The position numbers were made by a program, and so were the translations under genes. The notes under the pieces are model-generated. The model did not search any database and had not been told where the DNA came from. It saw only the letters and a program-made list of their open reading frames with translations. DNA of 64,000 bases from an uncultured Pelagibacteraceae bacterium. Its GTDB lineage: Bacteria; Pseudomonadota; Alphaproteobacteria; Pelagibacterales; Pelagibacteraceae. The DNA lies in NCBI GenBank assembly GCA_902589155.1, contig CACIRV010000001.1, positions 18,501 through 82,500 of the forward strand. Direction: 5' to 3'. Of the stretch, positions 45,023 through 51,114 are shown piece by piece. Positions within the stretch are counted from its first letter, which is position 1. Every line of letters begins with the position of its first letter.

Positions 45023-46708
45023 ATGAGCAAAATTAAATCTGATATTGAAATAGCAAGAGCAGCAAATATTAAACCAATTGATGAAGTGCTTGCAAAATCA
45101 AATATTCCTGATGATCCCTTTGCATTTAGTCCGATGGGACGTCATATAGCAAAACTTAATTTAGAATATATTTCCACATTAAAAGAAAAAAAAAATAATT
45201 TAATTTTGGTTACTGCTATTACTCCAACTCCTGCTGGAGAAGGAAAAACCACAACTTCTGTCGGCCTTAGTGATGCTCTGAATAAAATTGGAAAACACTC
45301 AATAGTCTGTTTAAGAGAACCAAGTTTGGGACCTTCATTTGGAATGAAGGGTGGAGCAGCAGGTGGCGGTTATGCTCAAGTTATTCCAATGGAACAGATC
45401 AACTTACATTTCACTGGTGACTTTCATGCAATAACTTCAGCTCATAATTTACTTTCAGCCTTAATAGATAATCATATTTATTGGGGAAATAAATTAAACA
45501 TAGATACTAAAAATATCGTATGGAAAAGAGTAGTAGATTTAAATGATCGAGCTCTAAGAAAAATAGAGATTAACTTAGAAAAATTAAAAGCCAATATCCC
45601 AAGAAATGATAGCTTTGATATTACTGTTGCCTCTGAAGTAATGGCGATTTTTTGTTTATCGAATAGCATACAAGAATTAGAAGAAAAAATTGGCAATATT
45701 ACTGTTGCATATTCAAAAGATAAAAAACCTATATATGCAAAAAATTTAAAAGCCCAAGGCCCTATGACAGTTCTACTTAAAGAAGCCGTTAGGCCTAATG
45801 TTGTACAGACTCTTGAAAATAATTTAGCTTTTATTCATGGCGGACCATTTGCAAATATTGCTCATGGCTGTAATTCAATTCTTGCAACAAAAACTGCTTT
45901 AAAATTAGCTGAATACGTCGTTACAGAAGCAGGTTTTGGAGCCGACCTTGGCGCTGAAAAGTTTTTAGATATTAAATGTCGCAAAGCAGGTATTCAACCT
46001 AGCTGTGTAGTTCTTGTAGCAACAATAAGAGCTTTAAAAATGCATGGTGGAGTAGAGAAAGATGATCTTAAAAAAGAAAATTTAGAGGCACTTAAAAAAG
46101 GATTACCTAACCTTGAAAGACATATTGAAAATATTAAAAAATTTGGCTTAGACCTAGTTGTAGCAATTAATCACTTTATTTCTGATACTGATAATGAAGT
46201 TAAAGTTATCCAAGATTACTGTTCAAAACTTGGAGTTAAGGTAAGTCTTTGCACACATTGGTCAGATGGGGGTAATGGAACTAAAGATTTAGCTAACAAT
46301 ATAGTTGAATTGACCGAGAAGAGTGAGAAAAGAAAATTTAAATATTTATATTCCGATGAAATCCCAATTTTGGAAAAAATAGAAAAAATCGCAAAAGAGA
46401 TTTATAGAGCTAAAGGAATCGAAGTAGATGAAAAAACTAAAGAGCAAATAAAGAAGTTAGAACAGGCTGGATTTGGAAAATTTCCAGTTTGTATTGCAAA
46501 AACACAATATAGTTTTTCTACTGATCCTAAATTAAAAGGAGCCCCTTCAGGTCATACGCTATCTGTTAGAGAAGTAAGATTATCTAGTGGAGCAGAATTT
46601 TTAGTTGTTGTTTGCGGATCAATAATGACTATGCCAGGTCTTCCAAGAGTACCAGCAGCTGATAATATTAAATTAAATAAAAAAGGTGAGATAGAAGGTT
46701 TATTTTAA
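45023..46708 (+). CDS. fhs: formate--tetrahydrofolate ligase
   Basis: [62 protein letters not shown]. Confidence 0.98.
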
Positions 46709-47808
46709 AAATCTATAATTTTCTTAGAGCTGTCTGCCATGGTAAATTCAGCTTTTTTCTTTGAGATTAATTTCATAGACTTAAATCCATCAACTTCTTT
46801 TATAAATTTATTTAGTTTTTTTCTTGCACCTTTACTCATTTTCATCCCTGGCGCATTAACACCTACATCTATAATGACTTCAGCTCCATTTGCAAAAGCA
46901 TTAATATAATTCGGTATAACTCTGCATTTGCCCATCATAGCCTCTGTTACCCAAATAGGCTTGATAATGTCTAAGCTTTTTAATAGTTCTGAGAACTCGT
47001 CTACCCAAAATTCTTTATCGCATTTTCCATCTGGAGGAGTTATGTGATGTATAGCGGCTATATCAAAATGATCTTTAATTTTTGGCAAAGTGGATTTCCA
47101 ATATCTTTTATTTTCTGGAAACATTCCAGCTGCTCCAGCCATGACAATCACAGCGTCTTTTTGTTTTGATTTTATTAATTTTGAAGAAAAATTAAAAATT
47201 TCAACAAAATCTTCTTCTTTACCTTTAAAAAACATTTTAAACTCAGGTTCATTCATTATTTGCCAATATATAATTGGTTTAGTTAAGCCTGGCATATCAT
47301 TGTTTCCATCCCCGTCATAACGGTCTATTAATTTCATAAGAAAATTTTTATAATCTTCCATTGAACAAGGTTTGCTCAAGTATTTTGTAAATCTTTTTCC
47401 AAATGGACTTCTAGCCTTTTTTCTATTGCATGATTTTTGTTCCCAGTTTGCATGCGGCCAGATAGTTGCTAAAGTTTTTTGGTTGTGATCTTGCGCGTAC
47501 GCAACATATTTATCTGCTTCTTCCCAAGAGAAAACTCCTTTTTCTTTTTCAATTCCATTCCAAATAAAAGGCCCAGGATGAGGTCTAACCCACTTACCAT
47601 CTTTACCTCTCATCCTTTCATCGTGTATCTCTGTTAGATCACCAAATCTTGATTCTGCATAAACACAATTAAAACTAAAAGTTAAATAAACTAAAGCTAA
47701 TAAGATTTTTTTTAGACTACTTTTTTTTATATTTTGCTGCTTCTTCTGATCCACCGGTTGCACTTCCTTTACTATAAGAATGGGCACCCATTCCAGCAAG
47801 TTGGCCAT
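46705..47808 (-). CDS. secreted clan GH-A-like (TIM-barrel) glycosidase homologue; true start probably downstream of 47808
   Basis: Sec-like signal [49 protein letters not shown]-type barrel start, [11 protein letters not shown] (NEP acid/base), [11 protein letters not shown] (candidate nucleophile Glu). Confidence 0.72.
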
Positions 47809-48916
47809 TCTGAACGATTAAATAAGGATCTCTAATTGGTTTTTTATCGAAGAAACATTCGAGGATTTCTCTAACACCTGCAGCATATCTGTATTGAGCT
47901 GATAAAGAAGTTCCAGAAGTGTGCGGTGTCATTCCGTGATTAGGCATTGATCTCCAAGCATGATCATTTGGTGCAGGCTGAGGAAACCAAACATCACCAG
48001 CATAACCACTTAATTGACCTGATTTAAGAGCTTTAGCAATAGCCTCTCTATTACATATTTTTCCTCTCGCAGTATTAACGATATACGCTCCTTTTTTCAT
48101 TTTGCTAATTAATTTATCATCAAATAAATTTTCAGTTTCAGGGTGAAGAGGACAGTTAATTGTCACAACATCACAAACTTTAACTAATGATTCTACCGAT
48201 TCATGAAATGTAAGATTTAACTCTTTTTCAACAGAATCTGGCAATTTGTGTCTATCGAAATAATGTAGGTGAACATCAAATGGCTTCATTTTTCTTAATG
48301 CGTCTAAACCAATACGTCCAGCAGCAACTGTTCCAATATGCATGCCTTCAACATCGTATGATCTTTGAACAGCATCAGCAATATTCCAACCACCTGCTTT
48401 TACGATTGCATGTTGGTTATGATAATCTCTAACCAATGATAAAATCATCATTACAATATGTTCTGCTACAGACCTTGAATTACAATAAGTAACTTCTACA
48501 ACGTCTATTTTGTTGTCCATAGCGGCTTGTAAATCAACGTGATCTGAACCAATCCCAGCAGTAATTGCCATTTTTAAATTTTTGGCTGACTCTATTTTTT
48601 CTCTTGTTAAGTAATAAGGCCAGAAAGGTTGAGATATAACAATATCAGCATCCACAAGTTCTTTGTCTGCTTTACAGCCTTTCGCGTCTTTGTCTGAAGT
48701 TACAACTAATGTATGACCGTTTGATTCTAGGAATTTTCTTAAACCCAATTCTCCTGAAACACACCCTAATAACTCCCCAGGATTAAAATCTATTCCTTTA
48801 GGTGTTGGGAGTGTCATCCCATCTGGATATTTGTCTAATTTTGGTAGATTAGACAAAGGGTAGCTTTTGGGCATTCCCCCTTTTGGATCATCGTATAAAA
48901 TACACAGTATTTTCAT
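47717..48916 (-). CDS. fdh: NAD-dependent formate dehydrogenase (start re-assigned to ATG at 48916)
   Basis: D-2-hydroxyacid DH fold; GVAITAGIGSDHVDLQAA-like, TVAAGRIGLDALRKMKPFDVHLHYFDRH, APNDHAWRSMPNHGMTPHTSGTSLSAQ. Confidence 0.95.
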   Translation of the reverse strand: MKILCILYDDPKGGMPKSYPLSNLPKLDKYPDGMTLPTPKGIDFNPGELLGCVSGELGLRKFLESNGHTLVVTSDKDAKGCKADKELVDADIVISQPFWPYYLTREKIESAKNLKMAITAGIGSDHVDLQAAMDNKIDVVEVTYCNSRSVAEHIVMMILSLVRDYHNQHAIVKAGGWNIADAVQRSYDVEGMHIGTVAAGRIGLDALRKMKPFDVHLHYFDRHKLPDSVEKELNLTFHESVESLVKVCDVVTINCPLHPETENLFDDKLISKMKKGAYIVNTARGKICNREAIAKALKSGQLSGYAGDVWFPQPAPNDHAWRSMPNHGMTPHTSGTSLSAQYRYAAGVREILECFFDKKPIRDPYLIVQNGQLAGMGAHSYSKGSATGGSEEAAKYKKK

Positions 48917-48931
48917 TTTTTTTATTCTAGA

Positions 48932-48960
48932 TTTGACTATTAACAAGGGGCAAAGTCAAA
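48932..48960. promoter_or_regulatory. inverted repeat TTTGACT-N15-AGTCAAA in fdh/metF-like divergent intergenic region
   Basis: Perfect 7-bp arms at 48932-48938 and 48954-48960, 16-50 nt upstream of fdh and 60+ nt upstream of the metF-like gene. Confidence 0.5.
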
Positions 48961-49019
48961 CTATTCTTATAGTGATTTTTCTGGACTCCTAGTAGGTAAC
49001 ATTGGTATATCCGGAAAAT

Positions 49020-49748
49020 ATGAAATTTTCTTTAGAAATAACTATGAAGACAGACCTCTCAATTTTACCAAAGGTTAAAGATGTCTACATAACAATGTTA
49101 CCTGGTAATGACTTTAGAGACGTTGCGAATAAAGCAAAAGAACTTGTGCGAAATGGGTTTAATCCTGTTCCTCACTTTCCTGCTCGATCAATTAAAAATT
49201 TGAATGAATTAAAAGAGTATACTTCTATGTGTAAAGATTTTGGCGTAAAACAAGCTTTGGTAATTGGAGGTGGAGCGGATCCAATAGGTGATTACCACTG
49301 CTCGTTGCAATTATTAGAGAGTGGGTTATTCAAGGGTATGAAGATAGGAATTGCTGGACACCCTGACGGGTCCCCTGATATATCGGATTCAGATTTAGAA
49401 AAAGCTATGAAAGATAAAAAGCCATTCGCAGATTATATTGTTACTCAATGGTTATTGGACCCTAAACCAATCACAGAGTTTATTTCTAAACAAACTTTAC
49501 CAGTTCATGTTGGAATTACTGGGCCTTTAAAAATAAGCAGCTTATTAAAATTTGCTAGTATTGTTGGAGCAAAAAATTCTCTAAATTTTCTTAAATCTAA
49601 CGCAACAAAAGCTGTAGACTTATTGAGACCCAAAGATCCAAATGAATTAATTGAAAACTTAAAATCGGCTACTGATCATTTTCATATTTATACTTTTGGA
49701 GGCTTGAAAGAAACAAACAAATGGTTAGAAAAAAATAATTATGCCTAA
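49020..49748 (+). CDS. methylenetetrahydrofolate reductase-family protein (start re-assigned to ATG at 49020)
   Basis: MKFSLEITMKTDLSILPKVKDVYITMLPGNDFRDVANKAKELVRNGFNPVPHFPARSIKN; GHPDGSPDI; MTHFR-like TIM barrel. Confidence 0.88.
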   Translation: MKFSLEITMKTDLSILPKVKDVYITMLPGNDFRDVANKAKELVRNGFNPVPHFPARSIKNLNELKEYTSMCKDFGVKQALVIGGGADPIGDYHCSLQLLESGLFKGMKIGIAGHPDGSPDISDSDLEKAMKDKKPFADYIVTQWLLDPKPITEFISKQTLPVHVGITGPLKISSLLKFASIVGAKNSLNFLKSNATKAVDLLRPKDPNELIENLKSATDHFHIYTFGGLKETNKWLEKNNYA

Positions 49749-51114
49749 AAAAGTTCCAAATTCTTATAAAGTTGAAAAGATAAATTATGATAAAGTAAGA
49801 CACGAAACATCAGTAGACCAATCTGATAGACAAGTACCATACAATCTAAGACAAAGCGGACCGACAAAAGTAGAAATGTTAATTTCAACTCGTGTAAGAA
49901 AGTCTCCTTACTGGCACCTATCAATGAAAGCTGGATGCTGGAGGGCTACAGTTTATAATCGAATTTATCATCCAAGAGGCTATGTTAGACCAGAAAAAGG
50001 TGGAGCAATGGTGGAGTATCAAGCGATTAAAAAACATGTAACTATGTGGAACGTAGCTGTAGAAAGACAAATAAGAGTTAAGGGCCCTGATGCAGAAAAA
50101 TTTACAGATTATGTGATTACAAGAGATGCTACAAAAATTTCAACAATGAGAGGTCGTTATGTCATTCTTTGTAACTACAAAGGGGGAGTTCTTAACGATC
50201 CAGTTCTAATGAGAGTAGCTGATGATGAATTCTGGTTTAGTCTATCAGATTCTGATATTGGTTTATATTTACAAGGTGTGAATGCAGACAAAAGATTTAA
50301 TGTTGAAATAGATGAAATAGATGCATGCCCAGTACAAATTCAGGGGCCTAAATCAAAAGCATTAATGAACGATCTAATAGGAGATCAAGTTGATCTAGAC
50401 AACATGCCGTTTTATGGTTTAGCAGAAGCAAAAGTAGGTGGCAGAAGCTGCGTCATATCTCAATCAGGATTCTCAGGAGAAGCTGGTTATGAAATTTATC
50501 TTAGAAATGCAACATTATACGCTGAAGATATGTGGAATGCAGTTCTTAAAGCTGGCAAAAAACATAAATTAATGGTTATTGCTCCAGCTCATCATAGAAG
50601 AATTCAAGCAGGAATATTATCATGGGGACAAGATATGGACCATGAACATAATCCTTTTCAATGTAATCTAGGTTATCAAGTGTCATTATCTGGAAAAGGT
50701 GAATGGAATAAGAAAACAGACTATGTTGGTAAAGAAGCATTAGAGAAAATGAAACAACAAATTAAAAATGGAGAAAAGCCTTACAAACTACAACTTGTTG
50801 GTATGGAACTTGGAGGAAAACCCATAGAAGATTATGCAAATGATTTTTACTTAATATCAAATGCTAACGGGGGTAAGCCAGTTGGTTATATAACATCGCC
50901 CTGGTATCATCCTGAAAAAGGAAAGAATATTGCAATGGGTTACGTGCCATTTGAGGGAAATTTAAATATTAATGGTTTTCCAATTGGTAACTTTGGAAAG
51001 AAATACAAAGTTCATTTGCCAAAAAAATATTCTAGTAAACCCGTTGAAGCTGTGGTAGTTCCAATTCCTTTTACAGAGTCTTTTCATGCAAACACTAGAG
51101 AGTCAAAAAAATAG
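49741..51114 (+). CDS. GcvT/DmdA-family THF-dependent methyltransferase (demethylase), substrate unknown
   Basis: STRVRKSPYW..ATVYNRIYHP..VERQIRVKGPDAEKFTDYVITRD..GGVLNDPVLMRV..SDSDIGLY..GYEIYLR; C-terminal GcvT barrel. Confidence 0.88.
   Translation: MPKKVPNSYKVEKINYDKVRHETSVDQSDRQVPYNLRQSGPTKVEMLISTRVRKSPYWHLSMKAGCWRATVYNRIYHPRGYVRPEKGGAMVEYQAIKKHVTMWNVAVERQIRVKGPDAEKFTDYVITRDATKISTMRGRYVILCNYKGGVLNDPVLMRVADDEFWFSLSDSDIGLYLQGVNADKRFNVEIDEIDACPVQIQGPKSKALMNDLIGDQVDLDNMPFYGLAEAKVGGRSCVISQSGFSGEAGYEIYLRNATLYAEDMWNAVLKAGKKHKLMVIAPAHHRRIQAGILSWGQDMDHEHNPFQCNLGYQVSLSGKGEWNKKTDYVGKEALEKMKQQIKNGEKPYKLQLVGMELGGKPIEDYANDFYLISNANGGKPVGYITSPWYHPEKGKNIAMGYVPFEGNLNINGFPIGNFGKKYKVHLPKKYSSKPVEAVVVPIPFTESFHANTRESKK

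Follow-up and report, generated by a model that had tools for sequence, protein, structure and literature searches.

A DmdA-like protein of SAR11 as a putative glycine betaine:tetrahydrofolate methyltransferase

The locus and its methyltransferase gene

The stretch of DNA analysed here (‘the window’) is 64,000 nucleotides long and comes from an uncultured Pelagibacteraceae bacterium. It contains the gene of a GcvT-fold protein, a predicted tetrahydrofolate (THF)-dependent methyltransferase, whose neighbours in the window are genes of C1 oxidation only (metF, fhs and formate dehydrogenase, FDH); the dimethylglycine enzymes of the genome are on another contig. The features are as follows.

45023..46708, forward strand: formate-tetrahydrofolate ligase, fhs (NF010030, 891 bits; cut-off 652)
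47717..48946, reverse strand: NAD-dependent formate dehydrogenase, last enzyme of C1 oxidation (NF005750, 668 bits; cut-off 329)
49020..49748, forward strand: divergent short MetF-like protein, predicted 5-methyl-THF oxidoreductase (family profile against PDB 7xg9)
49741..51114, forward strand: GcvT-fold protein of 457 aa, predicted THF-dependent methyltransferase (PF01571, DmdA model, 3tfh, orthologues, tree)
49813..49860, forward strand: clade-specific N-terminal motif VDQSDRxVPxNLRQxG, residues 25-40 (alignment)
50461..50472, forward strand: active-site strand, residues 241-244, with Q241 and F244 (alignment, 3tfh numbering)
50659..50661, forward strand: Q307, invariant in the clade (alignment)

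Between fhs and the formate dehydrogenase gene, a putative secreted protein (46705-47808, reverse strand) shows weak, below-cut-off similarity to glycosyl hydrolase family 10; its longest ORF overlaps that of formate dehydrogenase by 92 nt. Elsewhere in the same genome, contig C3 carries seven tandem ORFs of about 200 aa (L192:13875-18698), apparently secreted and with a motif like DDIxDFxIEGxSxGDSLLDxxS, and an eighth ORF similar to this row is found at L193:3096-3683. Such tandem repetition is unusual for a streamlined SAR11 genome.

The methyltransferase reading frame starts with ATG and is open for 457 codons, in keeping with the original prediction of a 457-aa protein longer than DmdA. 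Both GcvT Pfam domains score over their cut-offs (PF01571, 140.5 bits against 25.6; PF08669, 28.9 bits against 25.9), and the nearest solved structure is that of Pelagibacter ubique DmdA (PDB 3tfh, 369 aa; phmmer E=1e-43). The motifs from which a DmdA/GcvT layout had been read are all present (STRVRKSPY, TVYN, VERQIRVKGPDA, NDPV and DSD). The phmmer alignment to 3tfh spans residues 49-346 of the window protein, and because it begins at residue 49, the first 48 residues are extra relative to DmdA. Orthologues from distant genomes can be aligned from about residue 16-24 onward, with variation confined to the first 10-20 residues; thus, the N-terminal extension is real rather than an artefact of start-codon choice.

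For residue comparisons, we aligned 29 clade members (bacteria and archaea) with five DmdA sequences and other family members. The motif VDQSDRxVPxNLRQxG in the extension is nearly invariant in the 29 clade members, including those far outside SAR11, and is absent from DmdA and GcvT. Across the clade, 168 positions reach at least 96% conservation, among them the extension motif and a GG insert at 87-88. The different N-terminus and insertions claimed earlier are therefore confirmed as conserved features missing from DmdA. An AlphaFold2 model built with 21 SAR11 sequences reached a pLDDT of 49.8, too low for a fold search or a pocket comparison.

The MetF-like gene ends within the methyltransferase gene, overlapping its start by 8 nt; its own start is more likely the ATG at 49020, with a TTG at 49002 as a possible alternative. 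The family profile matches 5,10-methylene-THF reductase (PDB 7xg9) at E=1e-70, and the single sequence scores below the Pfam MTHFR cut-off. A MetF-like gene lies directly upstream of the methyltransferase in 14 of the 14 SAR11 loci checked. An operon-dedicated MetF implies that the methyltransferase product is 5-methyl-THF, as with DmdA, and not methylene-THF.

Comparison with DmdA and GcvT

The 457-aa protein is not DmdA. It scores 241 bits with the DmdA equivalog model NF009133, short of the cut-off of 410, and the scores of all orthologues fall between 229 and 275 bits. The true DmdA of the same genome is encoded on another contig (G000:C6:26243-27331; 489 bits against the same cut-off of 410), as the original prediction had supposed for SAR11 cells in general. 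A separate GcvT (368 aa), DMGDH and SoxA are present as well. The GcvT equivalog cut-off is not reached either (TIGR00528, 138 bits against 236).

A phylogeny of 46 sequences, built with IQ-TREE, places the 29 orthologue rows in a clade of their own (support 100/100; stem length 1.28 changes per site), while five sequences that are annotated as DmdA or score as such group together with one relative at 99/98, apart from the orthologues. Some outer rows of the tree have long branches, and its deeper branching order is not relied on. Although the fold is shared and both families match below cut-off, the cut-offs, the tree and the presence of separate GcvT and DmdA genes put an identity as GcvT or ordinary DmdA practically out of the question.

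Differences are also seen at presumptive active-site positions. Q241 occurs in 29 of 29 clade members, and the equivalent R194 (3TFH numbering) is Arg in every DmdA, GcvT, DMGDH and SoxA aligned. Q307 is likewise found in 29 of 29, where the equivalent E259 (3TFH) is Glu or Asp in all other family members aligned. F244, again in all 29, replaces W/Y197 of DmdA. W197 is listed as a DMSP residue of DmdA (PMC7487153), but position 197 is Y in three of the five DmdA sequences; W is thus not universal, which weakens the change to F as a diagnostic marker.

Compared with DmdA (PDB 3tfh/3tfi/3tfj), then, the window protein retains the GcvT fold, the YN and NDP motifs and the equivalents of the THF-binding residues E204, Y206 and R239, and it would be expected to share redox-neutral onium methyl transfer. 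It is about 32% identical to the genome's own DmdA and differs in the 48-aa N-terminal extension, the inserts, the replacements R194 to Q, W/Y197 to F and E259 to Q, its neighbours and its separate clade. The orthologues split from DmdA at 100/100, and the pocket, compared at the level of sequence, differs too. The idea of a DmdA/GcvT paralogue with another methyl donor thus gains support from the cut-offs, the tree, the residues and the existence of carriers without DmdA; the identity of the donor is what we infer below. Another DmdA-like clade, of about 380 aa, was observed on Roseobacter plasmids (L182:7974-9113, L183:5971-7113), where it is accompanied by an Lrp regulator, OsmC, enoyl-CoA hydratase and acyl-CoA synthetase.

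Distribution, gene company and the first demethylation step

Orthologues are present in 7 of 25 sampled genomes of the window's genus and in all 16 sampled members of the sister family (one of them partial). Among 289 Alphaproteobacteria, 11 other genomes carry one at 65-83% identity, in addition to an outlier at 54% (G056), and four genomes of two further proteobacterial families also have the gene. Haloarchaeal plasmids (megaplasmids) encode orthologues with 49-57% identity over 95% of the length. The haloarchaeal branch sits inside the bacterial branch in the IQ-TREE phylogeny, and this nesting suggests that the gene was laterally transferred between bacteria and haloarchaea.

Clustering of the ORFs around 24 loci shows that MetF, a DMGDH/DMGO-type flavoprotein, SoxBDAG genes and Fhs recur. 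The flavoprotein matches dimethylglycine oxidase (1pj5, E=3e-214), and its gene lies within 10 kb of the orthologue in 8 of 12 family representatives, where 0.19 would be expected by chance (P about 8e-13). SoxBDAG adjoins the orthologue in G070, as do the beta, delta and alpha genes in G287 and the beta and alpha genes in G326. In G449, of a gammaproteobacterial-looking group, the cluster includes serine ammonia-lyase and the betaine regulator GbdR (512 bits against a cut-off of 480, tested in G449), and the gene order is the same in two relatives. On haloarchaeal plasmids, the orthologue is found with MetF, DMGDH/SarDH-type FAD oxidoreductases, threonine ammonia-lyase (ilvA) and BCCT, to which several plasmids variably add Fhs, FolD, GlyA, folP, pabAB and FDH; this gene set was not seen at the Haloarcula halophila locus. 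The Salinigranum and Haladaptatus plasmids (L184, L185) have folP and pabAB near the methyltransferase and C1-oxidation genes, with much of a folate-dependent betaine pathway in one block.

A DMGDH-like gene, recognised by homology, is present in 23 of 23 bacterial orthologue genomes against 8 of 32 controls (Fisher 5e-9) or, counted by family, in 12 of 12 against 8 of 28 (p=5e-5); the controls are a hand-made list of genomes without the orthologue, and the tests ignore finer phylogenetic relatedness. DMGDH, SoxA and others belong to large families, and their substrates are assigned by homology.

Glycine betaine is known to be converted to dimethylglycine by GbcAB, MtgBCD or Bhmt (PMC12478193). 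GbcA over cut-off, MTTB (MtgB) and BHMT are all missing from nine orthologue genomes, at least 93% complete and from six families; BHMT was not found in G247, G201, G160, G115, G326, G298, G387, G449 and G483 (completeness 93% or more in each). Among orthologue genomes, the GbcA cut-off is passed only in G681, and MTTB occurs only in G287 and on one haloarchaeal plasmid. BHMT is present in some (several SAR11 of family f2, G070, G299, G224, G068 and G287), and where BHMT or GbcA co-occurs, the orthologue is not the sole candidate for the first step. In the window's genus, no BHMT is seen in six of the seven carriers, and only a shortened relative in the other (genomes 70-87% complete); the carriers retain DMGDH. 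The window genome itself contains an ETF-linked DMGDH and SoxBDAG; BHMT, GbcA and MtgB were not found in it (70% complete). On this pattern of genes, the methyltransferase is the obvious candidate for the missing first step.

A GbcA-like Rieske gene of the f2 SAR11 (276-308 bits) was considered as a rival betaine oxygenase and set aside: it keeps other gene company and is absent from the window's genus. Read by eye, that company comprises an aminotransferase-sized gene, FAD oxidases and an apparently polyamine-type ABC transporter. On one contig of the sister SAR11 family (G025:C1, L194:3044-14560), a GbcA-like Rieske oxygenase (299 bits) is grouped with a 428-aa aminomethyltransferase, a protein resembling aminotransferases, FAD oxidases and a polyamine-like ABC transporter, a putative amine-degradation locus; its Rieske gene was not found in the window genome.

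Glycine betaine as the likely substrate

By synteny and similarity, the window gene is the probable orthologue of SAR11_1265 of Candidatus P. ubique HTCC1062. Sun et al. (2011) described SAR11_1265, beside metF (SAR11_1264), as a DmdA-like aminomethyltransferase (AMT) with no assigned substrate, guessed MMPA, and found nearly one copy of it for each recA in ocean metagenomes (PMC3160333). Reported as near single-copy in SAR11 Ia, this gene has been without an assigned function since 2011. Under sulfur limitation, SAR11_1264 and SAR11_1265 drop together to 0.10-0.20 of control (PMC5069961). In HTCC1062, 14C-methyl glycine betaine is oxidised to CO2, and a negligible share of the label enters biomass (PMC3160333), a result less expected if one methyl in three passes via methionine, as with Bhmt only; methionine recycling could hide this, and the result is only suggestive.

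Taking together the neighbours, the co-occurrence with DMGDH, the missing first-step enzymes, the MetF partner and the 14C physiology, we propose that the protein is probably a glycine betaine:tetrahydrofolate methyltransferase. One methyl would be taken from glycine betaine by THF, giving dimethylglycine and 5-methyl-THF, in a redox-neutral transfer of the onium type, like that of DmdA with DMSP, and without cobalamin, O2 or homocysteine. The overlapping MetF-like partner would then run from 5-methyl-THF to 5,10-methylene-THF. FolD, which we infer to be present in the window genome, and Fhs could carry the C1 unit on to formate (with ATP), and formate dehydrogenase would complete the oxidation to CO2. 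Dimethylglycine would pass to the DMGDH/DMGO-type flavoprotein and sarcosine to SoxBDAG, both encoded elsewhere in the genome, with glycine as the end product.

Other donors can be weighed against glycine betaine. Demethylation of another methylated onium osmolyte (proline betaine, carnitine, a dimethylsulfonioacetate-type sulfonium, homarine, TMAO or similar) might feed or adjoin the same pathway and also give 5-methyl-THF. The chemistry would be identical, and some neighbourhoods include creatininase-family genes and Rieske oxygenases without an assigned role, such as those of uncertain specificity near the orthologue in Haloarcula marismortui and G247 (125-132 bits against a GbcA cut-off of 670). 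However, most such donors would not yield dimethylglycine, and the genes that recur (dimethylglycine/sarcosine enzymes, GbdR, serine/threonine ammonia-lyase and BCCT) are those that fit a glycine betaine route; we consider another onium donor unlikely, if worth keeping in view. A LigM-like aryl-ether O-demethylase was a first lead, from the length and the metF/fhs neighbours: LigM is a THF-using protein of about 470 aa (against 457), and the Sphingobium SYK-6 ligM-metF-ligH set resembles the window trio, including a partner in the MTHFR fold family. The lead was rejected at 22-43 bits (NF047885 for LigM, 32 of 580; NF047633 for DesA, 43 of 800; PDB LigM, 22 bits), the neighbours included no recognised gene of aromatic catabolism, and such an activity is very improbable.

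Removing a methyl group from a thioether is a harder reaction than removing one from an onium compound, which counts against MMPA as the donor. The enzyme could carry out the second demethylation in DMSP breakdown (from MMPA to mercaptopropionate, the guess made for SAR11_1265; PMC3160333) or be a second type of DMSP demethylase, and kinship to DmdA and the metF neighbour are in favour; in addition, dmdA is about 16 kb away in f2 SAR11 and immediately adjacent in G027. Within the window's genus the orthologue co-travels with DmdA, and betaine cannot be told apart from DMSP on the evidence of this genus by itself. Carriers without DmdA exist, though: in the orthologue genomes G115, G326, G287, G681, G387 and G449, and on the four haloarchaeal plasmids searched, no gene has a DmdA score above 350 bits. 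Neighbours at the orthologue loci are metF, fhs and FDH in the window and DMGDH and SoxBDAG elsewhere, with no dmdB/C/D recognised and some neighbours unnamed, and a DmdB/C route from MMPA has been described in P. ubique (PMC5069961). An MMPA demethylase is thus disfavoured, and we regard a DMSP-route function of either kind as improbable.

The glycine betaine assignment can also be set beside known systems. MtgBCD (cobalamin), GbcAB (a Rieske monooxygenase) and Bhmt would catalyse the same proposed step, glycine betaine to dimethylglycine, but they are unrelated proteins that require cobalamin, O2 or homocysteine, none of which the window enzyme should need. The C-terminal GcvT domain of dimethylglycine oxidase/dehydrogenase is a homologous THF domain whose substrate is the intermediate that follows; that reaction is oxidative, flavin-linked and yields methylene-THF, whereas methyl-THF is expected for the window enzyme. 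LigM/DesA with ligH and metF in Sphingobium SYK-6 share the combination of THF-dependent demethylase, catabolic MetF and formate-THF ligase, but the window sequence lies outside that family and the substrate class differs. SAR11_1265/SAR11_1264 is by synteny the same gene pair, published with the MMPA guess and here assigned glycine betaine (PMC3160333); the gene itself was already reported as a DmdA-like AMT, and the novelty lies in its likely substrate.

For the first demethylation of betaine in SAR11, the literature searched credits a different, unproven enzyme: a 2025 PNAS paper proposes Bhmt as the SAR11 route and uses bhmt and mtgC as marker genes for betaine demethylation at sea. Our search, with most subscription journals outside it, found no LigM in SAR11 and no folate-dependent betaine demethylase of this kind. 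We hold it about evenly balanced that the clade represents a new enzyme class, a cobalamin- and oxygen-independent glycine betaine:THF methyltransferase that is the main SAR11 route of first demethylation and is laterally shared with haloarchaeal megaplasmids carrying much of a folate-dependent betaine-to-pyruvate pathway; SAR11 Bhmt would then serve methionine synthesis only. If the window gene is indeed a betaine demethylase, Bhmt would no longer stand as the sole proposed route of glycine betaine demethylation in SAR11, and marine surveys based on bhmt and mtgC would miss a main route. The first step of betaine use would no longer depend on vitamin B12 or on the demand for methionine, SAR11_1265 would gain a function, and betaine catabolism would become plausible for haloarchaea.
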